Shown here: piece by piece, positions 50,547 to 59,025 of the stretch | How positions within the stretch are numbered: the stretch's first letter is position 1 | How the letters are laid out: the number at the start of each line of letters is the position of its first letter | Source of the DNA: Bdellovibrionales bacterium | GTDB taxonomy: Bacteria; Bdellovibrionota; UBA1018; CAIMNF01 | DNA: 59,025 bases | Direction: 5' to 3' | NCBI GenBank assembly: GCA_947372355.1 | Contig: CANBTI010000010.1 | Span: 1-59,025, forward strand | Notes under the pieces: model-generated | Seen by the model: the letters and a program-made list of their open reading frames with translations, nothing else | Databases searched by the model: none | Told to the model about the DNA's origin: nothing | Program-made: the position numbers and the translations under genes

Positions 50547-51773
50547 TCAAGATTTTTTAATCATTTTGGCTAGGATCGCATCTCCAAATGGTGCCACATG
50601 CGGGAACCATTCCCAAGATTGTGTGCAGGCAAACCCTTCAGGAAGTTTAGGTTCATTCTCTTTTGGCATCACCGAGCAAGTGCTGTAGAGAATCGCGCCG
50701 TCTTCTTTTAGATGTTTAGATGCCCAATCCACGAGTTCGCTTTGCGTGTTGTGGAGCTTATCGATTTCACTCTCGGTACGATTCCATTTCACTTCCGGGT
50801 GTCTGCGAATGATTCCAGTGCTGGAGCATGGAGCATCAATCCAAATCAAATCATATTGGATCGGGCTCTTTTGAATTTCTTTGTAAGGCTGAATCACAAT
50901 TTGTTTTTGAAAACCCAATCGACTGCGATTTTCCATCACTTTTTGCATGCGATCATTATCCACATCGGTAGCCACCACCGTGTATCCACAAGCGGCTAAG
51001 CCCAGTGATTTTCCGCCCGGTGCTGAACAGAGATCTAAAATTTTAATCGATTCAGGATCTTTGCCAGTGGTTTGAAGATACTTCACTGCTTCTTTTAAAA
51101 GAAGTTGATTTGAAATGTCTTGAACAAAGCCTTTGGGTTCATCACCACGATAACCGGCTTCGAGTAAAAAAGGTTCTTCGGAGTCCAGTTTACGATACCA
51201 AGTTTTGGGGCGCTCTAAACAAGCTTTCGCAAAAGCGAGAGTCCAATCTAGGCCGCGGGTTTTTCTGAGTCCAAAAAAAAGCCAATCCGGCAAACTAGAC
51301 CACGCCAATTGCTCAGCATGAGGTGTTTCGCTCGTGATTTTCCAGTTTTTCCAATCATCACGCGCATCGGCCACTTTTCGTAAAATGGCATTCGCAAATT
51401 TCGAAGGCGCTTCCCCTTCACTATCACCAATGGATTGAACGGTTTCAGAAACAATCAACGCTGAAGGTGTGTCTTGCTCGAGCAATTGATAAACCGCAGT
51501 TTGCAAATAGCGACGGAGCGGGCCCGTTGGTTTTTTCTTCAGTGAATAAGTATCAATGATGTAATCAATGCGACCCCGAAAGCGAATCACTCCTGAACAA
51601 AGTTCATAGATCCATCCACGTTCAAACTCTGGAAGAGTGCGATCACTATTGCGAGTGATCTCTTCGAAAAAACTTTGCTCCAAGGATTGATGAGAATTTG
51701 CAACTTGAGCAAGCGTTTTTACCGCAATTTTACGGAGTTGGATTAAACTATCTGAGCGATTATCTTGCGCCAT
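50547..51773 (-). CDS. rsmB: 16S rRNA m5C methyltransferase RsmB
   Basis: A 408-residue enzyme with an N-terminal NusB-like RNA-binding domain (about residues 12-140, IAVKTLAQVANSHQSLEQ) and a C-terminal methyltransferase: motif I ILDLCSAPGGKSLGLAACG, motif IV WIDAPCSSTGIIRRHPEVKW, motif VI LYSTCSVMPKENE. It methylates C967 of 16S rRNA (E. coli numbering). ATG at 51773 is taken; an in-frame codon 16 upstream would overlap sppA further. It overlaps sppA by 14 bases. Confidence 0.93.
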   Translation of the reverse strand: MAQDNRSDSLIQLRKIAVKTLAQVANSHQSLEQSFFEEITRNSDRTLPEFERGWIYELCSGVIRFRGRIDYIIDTYSLKKKPTGPLRRYLQTAVYQLLEQDTPSALIVSETVQSIGDSEGEAPSKFANAILRKVADARDDWKNWKITSETPHAEQLAWSSLPDWLFFGLRKTRGLDWTLAFAKACLERPKTWYRKLDSEEPFLLEAGYRGDEPKGFVQDISNQLLLKEAVKYLQTTGKDPESIKILDLCSAPGGKSLGLAACGYTVVATDVDNDRMQKVMENRSRLGFQKQIVIQPYKEIQKSPIQYDLIWIDAPCSSTGIIRRHPEVKWNRTESEIDKLHNTQSELVDWASKHLKEDGAILYSTCSVMPKENEPKLPEGFACTQSWEWFPHVAPFGDAILAKMIKKS

Positions 51774-52803
51774 TCCAGATCCAATACAGCCCCGGTGGCA
51801 AAATTTTACGTTCGCTGACATTCATGCCGGTGATGCGATCTGCAACCTTGGCAACTAAGTGATCGATGAAGGAAGAGCCTTCTTCGAAATCATCTTCGTC
51901 TTCATCGCCGCCGCCCATGATTAAATCTTTTAAGCCTGATGCTTTTTTCACAGGATGAACCAGTTTTACTTTGCCTTTAATTTTCGCTTCTTTGGCAATG
52001 TATTTCACAGCATCATTGAGCGTGCCAATTTCATCCACCAATTTTAATTTCTTCGCTTGCACGCCTGAGAACACGCGGCCATCAGCGATCGCTGTTACTT
52101 CTTCAGGAGTCATGTGGCGTCCTTCTGCTACAGCTGCTTTAAATTGCTCCAAAGTATCTAATACTAATTGTTGAAAGTAAGCGCGCTCATCTGGGCGCAT
52201 ATCACGATACTCAGAACCAGAATCTTTGAATTTTCCAGTATTGATCGTAAAACGCTCTACTTTTGCCCACTCATACAATTTTTTCAAATTCATGAATTCC
52301 ATGATCACACCAATAGAACCCGTGAGTGTTCCTGCGTTTGCATAAACTTTTTTTGCACCAGCAGCGATATAAAACGCGCCAGATGCCGCTACACTTTCCA
52401 TTGAAACCACGAGTGGTTTTGGAAAAGCTTTCACTGCTTCATAAATTTCTTGAGAAGGAGCCACTGCACCACCGGGTGAGTTCAAGCGGAGAACAACAGC
52501 TTTAATATCTTTTTCTTCTTCAGCTGCTTTCAGTTGCTTCATGATTTTTTTAGATTCCATGATCGCGCCATTGAGCTCGATGATGGCAACATAGTTTCCA
52601 GAAGCGGCGCTGAACACGGCTTGATCTTTATCTTTCCAAAGGGAACCCTTCATTAGAAAATAAACAAAAGAGAATACGAGGAACAAACCGAAAAGCACGG
52701 CCGACATTCCTAAAACCACGGCGAGAGGGTTTAATTTGCTCTTCTTGATTTCTTTTGGCTGAACAGGGGTAACCGGAGTTTGATTTTCTTGATTTTGATC
52801 CAT
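51760..52803 (-). CDS. sppA: Signal peptide peptidase SppA, 36 kDa type
   Basis: A 347-residue membrane protease with one N-terminal helix (about residues 33-55, LAVVLGMSAVLFGLFLVFS). The fold is the SppA/ClpP type: LRLNSPGGAVAPSQEIYEAV, ASGAFYIAAGAKKVYANAG with the catalytic lysine, and LTGSIGVIMEFMNL with the nucleophile serine. It degrades cleaved signal peptides in the inner membrane. An in-frame ATG at 52839 gives 12 more residues; neither has a clear ribosome binding site. Confidence 0.92.
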   Translation of the reverse strand: MDQNQENQTPVTPVQPKEIKKSKLNPLAVVLGMSAVLFGLFLVFSFVYFLMKGSLWKDKDQAVFSAASGNYVAIIELNGAIMESKKIMKQLKAAEEEKDIKAVVLRLNSPGGAVAPSQEIYEAVKAFPKPLVVSMESVAASGAFYIAAGAKKVYANAGTLTGSIGVIMEFMNLKKLYEWAKVERFTINTGKFKDSGSEYRDMRPDERAYFQQLVLDTLEQFKAAVAEGRHMTPEEVTAIADGRVFSGVQAKKLKLVDEIGTLNDAVKYIAKEAKIKGKVKLVHPVKKASGLKDLIMGGGDEDEDDFEEGSSFIDHLVAKVADRITGMNVSERKILPPGLYWIWNGAR

Positions 52804-52920
52804 GAAGGAAATGGTATGCCCAAAATCAGATAATTTCATTTAAAATAAAGACTTACGCCCCGTGATGCCGCATTGCGCATGCAGTCTTAAAACTAATTAC
52901 GCCTTACGTTGAGTTTGCGC

Positions 52921-52972: not shown

Positions 52973-53048
52973 GTCCCTATCGTCTAGAGGCCTAGGACAC
53001 TGCCTTTTCACGGCGGCGACCGGGGTTCGAATCCCCGTGGGGACGCCA
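52973..53048 (+). tRNA. tRNA-Glu (anticodon TTC)
   Basis: Acceptor GTCCCTA with TGGGGAC, anticodon arm CTGCC-TTTTCAC-GGCGG with anticodon TTC, T arm GGGGTTCGAATCCCC, encoded CCA end. Length 76 bases. An integrase gene follows 15 bases after it, so this gene's 3' end is the likely attachment site. Confidence 0.95.
53022..53048 (+). other. Presumed attL at the tRNA-Glu 3' end
   Basis: Tyrosine integrases commonly recombine at the 3' half of a tRNA gene and leave that part intact. The T arm, acceptor and CCA of tRNA-Glu are intact next to the integrase. The matching copy (attR) must lie beyond the window, so the core limits are estimated. Confidence 0.5.
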
Positions 53049-53063
53049 AATTTTCTAACTTAC

Positions 53064-54209
53064 TTAAATCACTACAGAATCGGAACCCGACTCAGCAATG
53101 TTGTTGGAATTTCGTTGGATTGCATTCGATGAAACGAAAATCTCCCAGAGTGAATCCACTACATCCTCATTCTTATGAACGTAACGCTCAGTGGAACGAG
53201 AATCGCGATGGCCAAGCATCATTGATACCAATCTTGAGTTAGCTCCTCTTCCAATAAGCCTTGTTGCGAAAGTATGCCTGAGATCGTGCATGCGTATTTC
53301 CGTAACGCCTGAAGCCCTACAAGCGATTCTTAGATCGCGCGCAAGATGTTTCATAGAGATACCACTAAAGACTTCCATGCTTTTAGATATTGGAGTTCCA
53401 GTTAAACTCTTTAATTCCATCAAAGCTTCTTTTGCTTCAGGGAGTAAAGGAATGATTCTGGTTTCACCGTTCTTCGTTCCTTCGAATATTGAACCGGTGG
53501 TTTGGCATTTCGTTCTACGAACATGAACCTTGCCACCATTCGAACTGAATTCAATATCGATCCATCGAAGCCCCGCCAACTCTCCAGCACGAAGCCCAGA
53601 GTAAACAGCAAATTTCCATACCAAATAAAGTGAATTGGATTGAACCTTGGGATGAGAAAGAAACTGTTTGATTTCATTTTCACACCATACTTTTGCTGGC
53701 GATGGATTTTGTTTCGGTGGTTTCACCACGATCACTCTTGTGTCGGTAACCAATCCACGCTCAGCCGCTTCTTTGAAAGCTTGCTTGAAAGTATGAAAAA
53801 TAGTTCGACGGTAAGTTGCCGAGATTTTCAAATTCGATTCTAGAGAAGATCGAAACCGATGTACAGTATAGAGATCAATTTCTGCCATCTTTCTTTTTTC
53901 GAAAAATGGTGTGAAATAATTTCTCACAATGCCTTCATATCGTTCTTTAGTTTTTGGTCGAACTGCATTCTCTTTAACCAAACATTCAAAGCAGAACTCA
54001 ACGAATGTAAGATCAGTATGATACACACCCATTTGAATTCTTTCATAAGCCCCTTTTGCCCAAAGGCAAGCATGTTCCTTAATTGCAAATCCTTGCTTTC
54101 TTAATTGACCACCTCTCCCATCGGGAACGGAAGCAGCCCATTTTGTATTTTGATTTTTGCCAGTGATGTATGAATTTACATACTGACTAAAGATTTTGTT
54201 TTTAGACAT
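53064..54209 (-). CDS. Tyrosine-type site-specific integrase
   Basis: A 381-residue recombinase. An N-terminal AP2-like arm-binding part (about 1-65) is followed by a SAM-like core-binding domain (70-165) and the catalytic domain. The active-site residues are R in YSGLRAGELAGLRW, H-x-x-R in MHDLRHTFATRLIG, H in MMLGHRDSRST and the tyrosine in TERYVHKN. The gene ends 15 bases from tRNA-Glu. Its ATG overlaps the stop of the HTH gene (TAATG), so the two are coupled. Confidence 0.95.
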   Translation of the reverse strand: MSKNKIFSQYVNSYITGKNQNTKWAASVPDGRGGQLRKQGFAIKEHACLWAKGAYERIQMGVYHTDLTFVEFCFECLVKENAVRPKTKERYEGIVRNYFTPFFEKRKMAEIDLYTVHRFRSSLESNLKISATYRRTIFHTFKQAFKEAAERGLVTDTRVIVVKPPKQNPSPAKVWCENEIKQFLSHPKVQSNSLYLVWKFAVYSGLRAGELAGLRWIDIEFSSNGGKVHVRRTKCQTTGSIFEGTKNGETRIIPLLPEAKEALMELKSLTGTPISKSMEVFSGISMKHLARDLRIACRASGVTEIRMHDLRHTFATRLIGRGANSRLVSMMLGHRDSRSTERYVHKNEDVVDSLWEIFVSSNAIQRNSNNIAESGSDSVVI

Positions 54210-54463
54210 TAGACACCTCTTTTTAGTTGGTGCTTCTGCCCTAGCCGATTTTTCAAAGAACTATACTTATCAGGTGCTTTATTCGCATTTTGTTCCAAAG
54301 ATCGCAATACTTCGTTTCGATCAAAACGAACAACTCGACCTAATTGGAAATATTTGATTTTTTCATTTTTGACCCAATAACGAATTGTCCATGGATGTAT
54401 ATTTAAAAATATTGCGAGCTGATTAGTAGTTAGTAAGCCCTCTGGAATATTTAATTTATTCAT
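54209..54463 (-). CDS. Excisionase-like helix-turn-helix protein
   Basis: An 84-residue DNA-binding protein with a MerR-type HTH: LLTTNQLAIFLNIHPWTIRY followed by the wing LGRVVRFDRNEVLRSLE. This is the usual excisionase/helix-turn-helix 17 pattern that selects excision over integration. The C-terminus is basic. It overlaps the integrase start by one base (TAATG). Confidence 0.8.
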   Translation of the reverse strand: MNKLNIPEGLLTTNQLAIFLNIHPWTIRYWVKNEKIKYFQLGRVVRFDRNEVLRSLEQNANKAPDKYSSLKNRLGQKHQLKRGV

Positions 54464-54505
54464 TTGTATTTCCTTAATTCTATAAATCGTTCTTTAATAC
54501 TAATG

Positions 54506-56923
54506 CTAGAATTTAGGTTGAAATTGCTCATCGTTTAAGTCATCTGTTTTTCCTTGATTATAACTATAGTTTTCCGAAAGTAAGTTTGAGAAACTAATTG
54601 AATCTATTACTTTAATGCCAGACCAAACCCTACTTCTGATTTTTTGGCCTTTAATTCTGATTACTACCCTAGCATTTGAACTATATTCAGCTTCGGGGAA
54701 CTTTCTTCTAACTTCATCACAAAAAGTTCGGTCGCTTTGCTTAGAATAACCGTGCATCTTACACCACGATGAGTAAGCTTCATATAAATCTGCAGTACAT
54801 ATTTGGTTTACTTGATCTCCAACAACTATATTTTCTTCAAGAAACCTAGACGCAGGATTTAGCTCTTTGCGGTAAATACTTTTTGAAAGAATACTGATCC
54901 TTGGCTCATGCCAATAGTTCCGTTTTAATAATCTACTAAGACCAACTAATGCCCAATTAAATACACCATGAAGTTCTCCTGAACTTTCCCAGAAGCTTGG
55001 GTCGACCAATCGCCTATCTTGTTTACTTGGATCAAGAATTTGAACATTCATAGGAATTAAAAAAATACGTCTAAAAAGTGCATCTGACTTATCCCTAAAA
55101 TGAGGCAAATTATTCGTAGCAAATACAAGCTTTGCAGTTGGAATCATTTCAATTGGATCCCGATGTTTGCGTTCAATCGTCATGAAATCGCCTGATATAT
55201 ATTGTTTTAAAACGCCTTCCTCAGCCTTTGAAACTTCGCCAAGTTCAGCAACAATATTTGCATACTTTCCCATTGTTGCAGCTAATGGAAAAGTTCTAAC
55301 TGGTGAAAATGCTTCAAGTCCTACAGCCGAAACATTTTCCTTTCCTAGCATGCATCTAAGAACAGTAAGAATTACAGACTTTCCATTTGCACCTTCGCCT
55401 TTAAAAAATGCCATAATATTAAAACTGGAATCTTTAGTAAGACAAAGCCCAAAAAACTCTTGAATTCCTCTCTGCAAATCCTCGTCTGGTACCATCTCAT
55501 TTAAAAAATTCAGCCAAATCTCACTTTTAGCTAATGGATCATAATCATATTCGAGTGCAGTAAGAGTAAAATACTTTGGACAATTCGGGATCAGAAGTGT
55601 TTTTGATTCGGAGGTTTTTAAATACTCATCAACACGAAATAAGTGAGATTTTAATGAAATCAAACGCTCATCTTTACAAAAATGTTGATCAATCCAAAAA
55701 GGACTTTCAGTAAATGGAATTATTCCAATACCCTGCAAATGCAACATAACTGATTTTGAGAATGCCGAAATTGAACTGTGAGGAATTTTTTGTTCTTGAA
55801 TGTATCGGACAATCATTCCATTGACCCATGCACTTTGCTTGGGAACATATTTATTTTGTTCCCAGAAATACCAATCATCACGATAAAAACGAATTGGGGC
55901 ACCAAAACTTTCTTGAAATGCGTGCGCCACAATTTTTGGGTTTGCAGATACGGATTTAGTACAATGTCTAATAATTATCTCAATATCAATTTTTTCCAAA
56001 ATAGAACTAAGATTTAATTCAGTACAATGACTATGTTGGCATTTAAATGCTACAATTCGGCCATGTTTTATCAGCAAGCTTGAAGATGAATCTAACCTAA
56101 ACTCAGAACTATGCTGAGTATAATTAGGACATTGCACATCAATTCGGTCGTTGGCTTTTATGGCATAAGGTATGTTCATTTCATCAAAAAATGTACAAAA
56201 ATCAAACGATTTTGGATTTTTTTTAATTCCCCTTGATTTAAAAAAACTAGAAAATAATCTAACTTGTGAAGTATCATCTTCGGAGCGTTCACTTTTTTCT
56301 GTTTTTTTCTCTTTAAAACTCTCTCTTGTATCGGCGTGTGCTATTAATAAGGTTAATTCATCAAACTTATTTTCATTAGCCTCTAAGATATAGACCAAAA
56401 ATGGATCGTCAATGTTCTTTAAATGATACGTTCCGGCAAGTCTCATCACGCGAGGCAAATCACAAACTGCCTGATCTGTATTTAAATATTTTGCAATTAT
56501 TTTTTGAGTTCTCTCAAAAGACAATAAAGATTGGCCATCTATAGCAACAAAATATCCATGCACTCCATTTTTACTTTGAATAATAAAAGTAGGCTTAATT
56601 GGCAATTCAGGCAGCACTCCACCATCTTGATCAAAAAAGTAGGCTGAAACAGATTTTACATTTTCCTTTTTTCTTCCATTTAGATCGCCTTTATTAACCA
56701 TAATGAAAATTCCATAACCATTTTGATTTAATTTTATAATTTTAGGCCAAAGATCATCTATTGTTCCATGAAAATGATGTGGTTTATTTGGACCGGGGGT
56801 TTTTTTACAATCACGAAATACCTGTATTGTTACTTGTGCATTCTTATCACCTCGTAGGTGAAACACATGCATTTTCGCCATTTCCTTATTCAATGATAGA
56901 TTTAGATATTTTAACTCACTCAC
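54506..56923 (-). CDS. Primase-polymerase / D5-type helicase replication protein
   Basis: An 805-residue fusion. Residues 35-185 look like a RepB-type archaeo-eukaryotic primase: acidic FFDQDGG (D98, D100), SKNGVHGYF (H122) and CDLPRVMRLAGTYHLKN. A possible zinc site follows (CPNYTQH near 265, FKCQHSHC near 295). Residues 480-630 form an SF3 helicase: Walker A KGEGANGKS (S516), sensor FATNNLPHFR, arginine finger LFRRIFLIP. The last 100 residues are a winged-helix D5 C-domain (TFCDEVRRKFPEAEYSS). It would start autonomous replication of the element. GTG start preceded by GGAGA. Confidence 0.88.
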   Translation of the reverse strand: MSELKYLNLSLNKEMAKMHVFHLRGDKNAQVTIQVFRDCKKTPGPNKPHHFHGTIDDLWPKIIKLNQNGYGIFIMVNKGDLNGRKKENVKSVSAYFFDQDGGVLPELPIKPTFIIQSKNGVHGYFVAIDGQSLLSFERTQKIIAKYLNTDQAVCDLPRVMRLAGTYHLKNIDDPFLVYILEANENKFDELTLLIAHADTRESFKEKKTEKSERSEDDTSQVRLFSSFFKSRGIKKNPKSFDFCTFFDEMNIPYAIKANDRIDVQCPNYTQHSSEFRLDSSSSLLIKHGRIVAFKCQHSHCTELNLSSILEKIDIEIIIRHCTKSVSANPKIVAHAFQESFGAPIRFYRDDWYFWEQNKYVPKQSAWVNGMIVRYIQEQKIPHSSISAFSKSVMLHLQGIGIIPFTESPFWIDQHFCKDERLISLKSHLFRVDEYLKTSESKTLLIPNCPKYFTLTALEYDYDPLAKSEIWLNFLNEMVPDEDLQRGIQEFFGLCLTKDSSFNIMAFFKGEGANGKSVILTVLRCMLGKENVSAVGLEAFSPVRTFPLAATMGKYANIVAELGEVSKAEEGVLKQYISGDFMTIERKHRDPIEMIPTAKLVFATNNLPHFRDKSDALFRRIFLIPMNVQILDPSKQDRRLVDPSFWESSGELHGVFNWALVGLSRLLKRNYWHEPRISILSKSIYRKELNPASRFLEENIVVGDQVNQICTADLYEAYSSWCKMHGYSKQSDRTFCDEVRRKFPEAEYSSNARVVIRIKGQKIRSRVWSGIKVIDSISFSNLLSENYSYNQGKTDDLNDEQFQPKF

Positions 56924-57134
56924 GACTTCTCCCTACTTCTTAAGAAACCAAAAAATGATTTTCCTTAGATATTTTTTAATTTTCTCAGACTAAATTGTCT
57001 GCGATATGGAGAATATAGGTGGAATTAAGACCAAAACTTTACCTAAAAACTTTGAGTACCCCACCGGTCAGACAATGGGTTGAAAACATTGAAGCTTTTT
57101 AGATAAAATAATTATTATTTCTAGGGGTCGTAAA

Positions 57135-57851
57135 CTATTTTAACCTAAGTTTTTCTTTAATTATAGAGCCGTAATTTGTCGTAAATGTCAGTTCAGAAGG
57201 CAATTTAATCTCGCTTTCATTCTTGAGTTTAATTTTAGGCCAATCTTTTTTAAGGTCTTTGTAAAAAGGTGCGATCTTAAATTTATTTTCTTTTGAAAAC
57301 CATCCGCGGGGTTTTTCTGTTTTCGCCTTGTAATAGTTTATTGCTAAATCCAACAATTCCAGTTTGTTTAAACTTGAATTTCTACTAATTAACTTTCCCT
57401 GATTAATTTTTACTGATTTTATTACTAACGCCAGATCGTCTTTTGATATAGATAGCATTGAAAGGTTCACATCAAATACAATCGAATTTTTAATTAATTC
57501 TGTAAGTTTAAATTCTTCGCACAAAAAATCAAACTCATTAGTCGGAATATCTTTTCTATTTTGAAAATATTTATACAATATTTTTGCTGATAAAAATGCG
57601 TAGGCGGTACCCTCTTCCCACCGTCTGGAATTATTCATATAGCTCTCGGGGGCAGAGACTTCTACAGAAGTCTGGATTGAATTCTGAAAAACGGCGAGAA
57701 CAACTACATTTACAGTTACGCCTAATTGATGAGCCACTTGACCAAGAGAGATATAATCACCTATGCGACTACAGACGCTTATACTTTCGGAATACAGTTC
57801 ATCCTCTATAGAAGAATGAATCCTAAAAATAGACTTTTTTTCTTTGTTCAT
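57135..57851 (-). CDS. Element-encoded protein of unknown function with possible HTH
   Basis: A 238-residue soluble protein. Residues 35-56 (ISLGQVAHQLGVTVNVVVLA) look like a helix-turn-helix. The middle is helical, and the end is basic with strands (PSELTFTTNYGSIIKEKL). No family recognised. ATG at 57851 is taken; a GTG lies two codons upstream, and neither has a clear ribosome binding site. A palindrome lies about 110 bases upstream. The gap of 210 bases to the replication gene may hold its promoter. Confidence 0.55.
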   Translation of the reverse strand: MNKEKKSIFRIHSSIEDELYSESISVCSRIGDYISLGQVAHQLGVTVNVVVLAVFQNSIQTSVEVSAPESYMNNSRRWEEGTAYAFLSAKILYKYFQNRKDIPTNEFDFLCEEFKLTELIKNSIVFDVNLSMLSISKDDLALVIKSVKINQGKLISRNSSLNKLELLDLAINYYKAKTEKPRGWFSKENKFKIAPFYKDLKKDWPKIKLKNESEIKLPSELTFTTNYGSIIKEKLRLK

Positions 57852-57958
57852 ACACACGTGGCACAGCTAAAATGGTTTTTTATAAAAATACATACTATAA
57901 CCAAATGAATTATAAGTAAAAAGGAACATATCTGTGTTGGTGTGTTATTCACCGCTAA

Positions 57959-57971
57959 ATATACAGTATAT
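57959..57971. promoter_or_regulatory. Palindrome ATATACAGTATAT, possible operator
   Basis: A perfect 13-base palindrome in the 221-base AT-rich gap between two unknown genes of the element. It is shaped like a repressor site and contains a TATACT -10-like sequence on the minus strand, pointing to the gene at 57135. Confidence 0.35.
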
Positions 57972-58072
57972 CACCTAACAATTAATATATTGAATCTGAG
58001 CTACTCTTATTATGTAAACTAAAGGCTAATTACGTTAAATTTCAAGAGTTTATTAAAACCGAGAATCACAAC

Positions 58073-59025
58073 CTATTCAACCAAAAGCCGTTTTAAATGT
58101 GACTCTGTGATTTTTTTGTTACCCAAAAGAATATATGCGTCTGGGAACTGAGTTTTGATTTTGGCCTCATATTGATCATTTAGTTTTACTTTTTCATCCT
58201 CACCACACTCTTTGGATACACTTAAATAATAGCCTTCTTCAGTTTCATTAACTATAAATCCAATTTTTTTTGCTTCTGATAATATTATTGATATTTTATC
58301 ATTCAACTCTAACAACTCTTGTCTAATCATCGCACTGAGCTTAGCAGGAGAAACAACTTCAGGGTGATGAGAATAAATAAAATATCTAATTACTGATCTC
58401 TGCATCTCTTGCCACGTAACAGATTTCCTAAGTTCTTCAATCCATTCATCAACTTTTTCTTTACTTTCCATTTGGTATTTTTCATACCCCAGCCTAAATT
58501 CATTTTCCAAAACAATACCATCTTTTACTCGATAATTTTTACCCGAATATCCTGATAAATAATCATTTAGTGTCTTAAAAAGAATTTTATTGTCATCAAA
58601 AGCATACAAACACTCATTAATACCGTCCCCATCATTATCTGGAACACTACTGTAATAAGTAAATTCTTTTTTACTTGGATTAATCCACACGACAACCCTA
58701 TACCCATTTGAATTTGAGAGCACAAATCTATCGGGATTTCCTGTATGGATTGGTAAATTTTCACCGAGAAATTGACTACCCTCAACTCGAAGCTGAATTA
58801 TCTGTTCTTTACTCAACTCAAGATGAGAAATCTTAAATTGCATTTCTTTTAATTTTTCAGGCATTTCGTTTTTAAACTTTTTTGCCTTTAGATATGAATA
58901 TGTTACATCAACCACAGTAATCCAGCTCAATGCAGATCCCAATCCCAGTGAAAATATCAGGTACCAAACAATATCAAATATAGTTAATGGATCAGTTCCA
59001 GTGTAACCACCGTCTATCCACTTAT
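58073..59025 (-). CDS. Membrane-anchored unknown protein, cut by window end
   Basis: The frame stays open to the edge (no stop for at least 27 codons beyond TTG 58942), so the start is outside. The visible part begins with a soluble stretch, a hydrophobic segment (FDIVWYLIFSLGLGSALSWI), then about 270 soluble residues. PDNDGDGINE is a calcium-loop-like DxDxDG motif. The C-terminus is mixed helix and strand (YILLGNKKITESHLKRLL). No family recognised. It lies 215 bases upstream of the gene at 57135. Confidence 0.6.
   Translation of the reverse strand, partial: KWIDGGYTGTDPLTIFDIVWYLIFSLGLGSALSWITVVDVTYSYLKAKKFKNEMPEKLKEMQFKISHLELSKEQIIQLRVEGSQFLGENLPIHTGNPDRFVLSNSNGYRVVVWINPSKKEFTYYSSVPDNDGDGINECLYAFDDNKILFKTLNDYLSGYSGKNYRVKDGIVLENEFRLGYEKYQMESKEKVDEWIEELRKSVTWQEMQRSVIRYFIYSHHPEVVSPAKLSAMIRQELLELNDKISIILSEAKKIGFIVNETEEGYYLSVSKECGEDEKVKLNDQYEAKIKTQFPDAYILLGNKKITESHLKRLLVE

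Follow-up and report, generated by a model that had tools for sequence, protein, structure and literature searches.

An integrated mobile element probably begins behind tRNA-Glu in a Bdellovibrionales draft genome

The last 6 kb of this contig very probably hold the left part of a mobile element that carries genes for integration, excision and replication and is integrated at the 3' end of a tRNA-Glu (TTC) gene, its attachment site. The window that we analysed is the whole of contig C10 (59,025 bases); the draft genome to which it belongs totals 2.73 Mb and has 125 contigs. The part of the island that could be read spans positions 53049-59025, directly behind the tRNA gene, and contains five genes, all on the minus strand. 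As an earlier note on this DNA had stated, the window stops inside the second of two orphan cargo genes; the contig ends there, and the right end of the island lies beyond the assembled sequence. The same note had proposed a new integrative element at tRNA-Glu. The element itself stands on its gene content, its position, its GC content, its absence from congeners and the finding that, in another family of the phylum, an integrase related to this one occupies the same tRNA. Its novelty is confined to the sequence level, and its kind is known. Among the subtypes, we hold a phage satellite to be the most likely, but we make this assignment tentatively.

Two host genes, for an RsmB-type methyltransferase (50547-51821) and a peptidase of the S49/SppA type (51760-52839), precede the tRNA-Glu gene (52973-53048, plus strand; found with ARAGORN and Rfam RF00005). 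The 3' end of the tRNA gene is intact and forms the left junction. The putative att junction reaches from this 3' end to the stop codon of the integrase gene (53020-53063), which begins 16 bp past the tRNA. GC content is 34.4% in the 6-kb island part, compared with 40.2% in the rest of the window. The integrase gene has a host-like GC content of 40.5%, and the drop begins at the neighboring HTH gene. The count of promoters and terminators was not above that of shuffled sequence.

The gene next to the tRNA codes for a tyrosine integrase of 381 residues (53064-54209, minus strand; PF00589, 3.9e-26; phrog_1, 1.8e-52). Its catalytic motifs are intact (SGLRAGEL at residue 204, HDLRHTF at 308 and GH...ERY at 333). 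Upstream of it is a gene for an excisionase-like HTH_17 protein of 84 residues (xis; 54209-54463, minus strand), which matched HTH_17 (2.2e-9), TIGR01764 (1.8e-7, above the cut-off) and phrog_66. Because the stop codon of the HTH_17 gene overlaps the start of the integrase gene, the two are probably co-transcribed. Plausible ribosome-binding sites precede both the primase and xis genes. The order of transcription is primase-xis-int, with int nearest to att and transcribed towards tRNA-Glu. The profile matches, the motifs and the shared minus strand confirm the earlier description of integrase, excisionase-like and primase/SF3 helicase genes in one orientation. In the pathway that we propose, the integrase would recombine attP of the circular form with the 3' end of the tRNA gene. 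A recombination of this kind leaves the tRNA intact, which would explain why int lies directly behind it. The small HTH_17 protein would then serve as the directionality factor that biases the reaction towards excision.

We compared this site with the corresponding site in congeners, a comparison that the earlier note had suggested. In eight congeners, the flank comprising sppA and tRNA-Glu could be read up to and past the tRNA, and it is conserved. The island genes are absent behind the tRNA in seven of the eight (G001, G002, G004, G006, G008, G009 and G010). In the remaining genome, G003, the place behind tRNA-Glu is taken by another, distantly related tyrosine integrase (25.7% identical) together with an HTH gene, on a contig (C244; L051 1-1492) that is cut by its end. 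The site is therefore variable and has been used repeatedly, and the proposal of an element gained support from the comparison. An SNF2 helicase gene lies directly behind tRNA-Glu in G004 and 2.7 kb further on in G002, and in G007 and G011 the contig breaks at tRNA-Glu or shortly behind it. At the limits used, searches of the genus's 11 other genomes turned up no relative of either the primase or the integrase. Elements at tRNA genes are recognized by a recombinase gene beside the tRNA, by a direct repeat of the tRNA end on the far side and by absence from the site in relatives; this island shows the first and the last. The finding gives this lineage, in which mobile elements have been little described, a tRNA-Glu site that hosts exchangeable islands.

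The far end of the island was sought across the assembly. A second copy of the tRNA-Glu end of at least 15 bp was not found in the assembly, in which the contig stops before the right end of the island, and this result neither supports nor refutes an element. When two mismatches were allowed in a pattern search for the tRNA end, only tRNA-Glu itself matched in the assembly. Identity blocks at att sites may be no longer than 7 bp (PMC10111431). A 14-bp match to the tRNA end on contig C29 was rejected as the far att site; it lies inside a gpmA-like gene, and about one such match is expected by chance. The last 626 bases of the contig show no overlap with any other contig. The assembly also lacks an orthologue of the SNF2 gene found behind tRNA-Glu in some congeners, and the 331-residue gene that neighbors it was likewise not found, in a search that had no positive control.

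Independent support for tRNA-Glu as a target of this integrase type comes from elsewhere in the phylum. The closest integrase among 369 phylum genomes (30% identity, 1e-46) belongs to G212, a member of another family. It sits 33 bp behind tRNA-Glu (TTC), the same isoacceptor, at a similar distance and in the same orientation as ours, and an HTH_17 gene comes next at both loci. The two islands differ in the gene that follows, which in G212 is a DUF3987 helicase-like gene where ours has the D5 primase, and in the presence of a known gene nearby. This gene, for an Mrr restriction endonuclease, is found further on in the G212 island (contig C21; L153 7354-12808). A further 13-bp copy of the tRNA-Glu end occurs at position 14687 of L153, within a kinase-like open frame; it may be a chance match or a far att site.

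The replication gene of our island (54506-56923, minus strand) codes for an 805-residue fusion of a primase and an SF3 helicase, with a GTG start and AGGGAG upstream. The protein matched TIGR01613 (1.2e-51), DUF5906 (3e-18), phrog_864 (1.2e-69) and Pox_D5, and its helicase motifs are intact (Walker A GEGANGKS at residue 509 and sensor FATNN). Its N-terminal residues resemble those of archaeo-eukaryotic primases (DQD at 98-100, SKNGVH at 117 and CDLPRVMRLAG at 154), residues 25-192 gave weak matches to PHROG primase/helicase families, and the nearest solved structure is that of a DNA primase (PDB 7ola, 1.8e-8). The name RepB-primase, which had been given to this gene, did not hold up: the protein has no match to a RepB primase profile in Pfam at E 1, and residues 1-200 have no meaningful match in the PDB. 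We propose that the fusion would replicate the excised circle, with the helicase part opening the origin and the primase part priming. An AT-rich intergenic stretch upstream of the gene (56924-57134) is a candidate promoter/operator or origin; a repeat search of it found no iterons and only short imperfect inverted repeats. The 42 bp from the primase stop to the xis start are also free of repeats. Unlike SaPIs, in which an origin with iterons comes right after the primase/rep gene, the island shows none at this place, and its origin may be repeat-free or lie elsewhere.

The closest primase in the class, from Oligoflexia bacterium MAG_CO165 (JARLHE010000002.1), is 37% identical over its length. 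It adjoins a recombinase and tRNA-Ser near a contig end (L049/L067). The recombinase of that element is a serine recombinase at tRNA-Ser, whereas ours is a tyrosine integrase at tRNA-Glu. With a related primase found beside a serine recombinase at tRNA-Ser, and a related integrase beside another helicase gene in G212, recombinase and replication modules appear to have been exchanged. This pattern suggests a shuffling of integrase and replication modules in the lineage. In L049 (5091-9571; G024, contig C44), the serine recombinase next to the primase is large, and its reading frame overlaps tRNA-Ser.

Two viral contigs carry comparable gene sets. In IMGVR_UViG_3300038425_000139 (L076, 256-9339), a satellite-like element of about 9 kb lies between two direct repeats, which are 45-bp copies of tRNA-Arg sequence. 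It has the same primase family as our island, HTH genes and a tyrosine integrase at a tRNA gene. It differs in its use of tRNA-Arg, in an integrase that is only weakly similar (22%), and in genes for a small terminase, a tail terminator and a head protease. The second contig (L082, 1-14874) has a terminal repeat that defines a 14.75-kb unit, in which the primase, excisionase and integrase genes follow each other in the same order as here. Genes for a terminase, a capsid and a tape measure are present in this unit, together with two tyrosine-recombinase-like genes and one serine-resolvase-like gene.

The gene content of our island (Int, HTH_17 and a DUF5906/D5 primase in one direction) is most like that of phage satellites, and for this reason the element would most likely rely on a helper phage for its transfer. 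The conserved trio of satellite genes is int, alpA and pri, and HTH_17 and DUF5906 are counted among the integration and replication genes (PMC10111431). The Rep protein of SaPI5 joins a primase to a helicase (PMC7581432). The gene set that marks satellites, namely an integrase, an AlpA/HTH regulator and a primase, mostly in one direction, is present here. Gram-negative PICI, SaPI5 and P4-like satellites share with our island an integrase, a small HTH regulator or excisionase-like gene, a D5-type primase, a single direction of transcription, a tRNA gene and low GC content. Unlike them, our island has the order primase-xis-int with int nearest to att and directed towards the tRNA. In model satellites, int is not known to stand last in transcription order beside att. 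PICI-like satellites are 10-20 kb in size, and the 6 kb that we could see contain no packaging, capsid or helper-control gene, with the rest of the element past the contig end. Since the packaging and helper-control part is missing, int is last and adjoins att, and the primase has no iterons beside it, we favor a satellite with less than firm confidence.

The same 6 kb could instead open a complete temperate prophage, as its left edge, in which the genes for integration, excision and replication come first and those for head, tail and lysis lie past the contig end. Tailed phages often carry this primase family (1474 phage records), and the phage-like L082 unit combines the gene order seen here with genes for a virion. 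We nevertheless consider a prophage rather unlikely, given that the 6 kb seen contain no structural, repressor or lysis gene and that a search of 50,697 phage records gave no match for either orphan gene, with no accepted match in PHROGs. The lack of phage-specific genes that would be expected of a satellite fits an integrative plasmid or mobilizable element, an integrated replicon that would move by conjugation or transformation and not in phage particles. P4-type primases also occur on plasmids (354 records), but the best plasmid matches of our primase cover about half of the protein at 23-32% identity, and a terminase is present on the record of the top match as well. The 6 kb seen gave neither a relaxase nor a partition gene, and an integrative plasmid or mobilizable element seems rather unlikely to us.

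A decayed island, formerly mobile but since fixed at the tRNA as a remnant, would agree with the absence of a second tRNA end from the assembly and with the lack of iterons. However, the assembly simply does not reach the far end, the genes are open, their catalytic motifs are intact, and plausible ribosome-binding sites stand before primase and xis; we regard a remnant as improbable.

In the satellite-like element that we favor, the two orphan genes would be the cargo. The first (57135-57857, minus strand) codes for up to 240 residues, starting from GTG at 57857 or ATG at 57851. It had no match in Pfam, PHROGs, NCBIfam, PADLOC, the PDB, phages, plasmids, viral contigs or 368 other phylum genomes. 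For the second (58073-59023, minus strand), of which 316 residues are seen and the N-terminus lies past the contig end, the same four profile libraries, the PDB, phages, plasmids and viral contigs gave no informative match. The earlier impression that the cargo genes are unlike known ones was borne out, with no accepted match in any of the profile libraries. The note had also mentioned that such elements often carry defence or interference systems near the far end, which here would lie past the contig end. Neither orphan matches PADLOC models of known anti-phage defence systems, and the one piece of indirect support for such cargo is the Mrr endonuclease gene close to the related integrase in G212.

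The second cargo protein has one relative among the 368 other phylum genomes, in G326 (contig C12; L052 8264-9097; 28-31% identity). Alignment with this relative places roughly 45 residues or more beyond our contig, and the missing N-terminus was not found on any other contig of the assembly. The protein has a hydrophobic N-terminal segment and is probably a membrane protein. Single-sequence AlphaFold models of the two orphans reached mean pLDDT values of 30 and 42, too poor for a structure search. In the model of the second, pLDDT exceeds 70 only between residues 230 and 299, which form helices with a hairpin and may be winged-helix-like. If the island is of the satellite type, this protein, probably a membrane protein and perhaps winged-helix-like at its C-terminal end, might be a new immunity or helper-interference gene, common to another recombinase-linked locus in the phylum, but we regard this idea as a long shot. 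The cargo will merit attention only once the far end is known. At the G326 locus (L052 7704-9097), the relative adjoins a fragment with a Recombinase domain and, as in our window, lies at a contig end.
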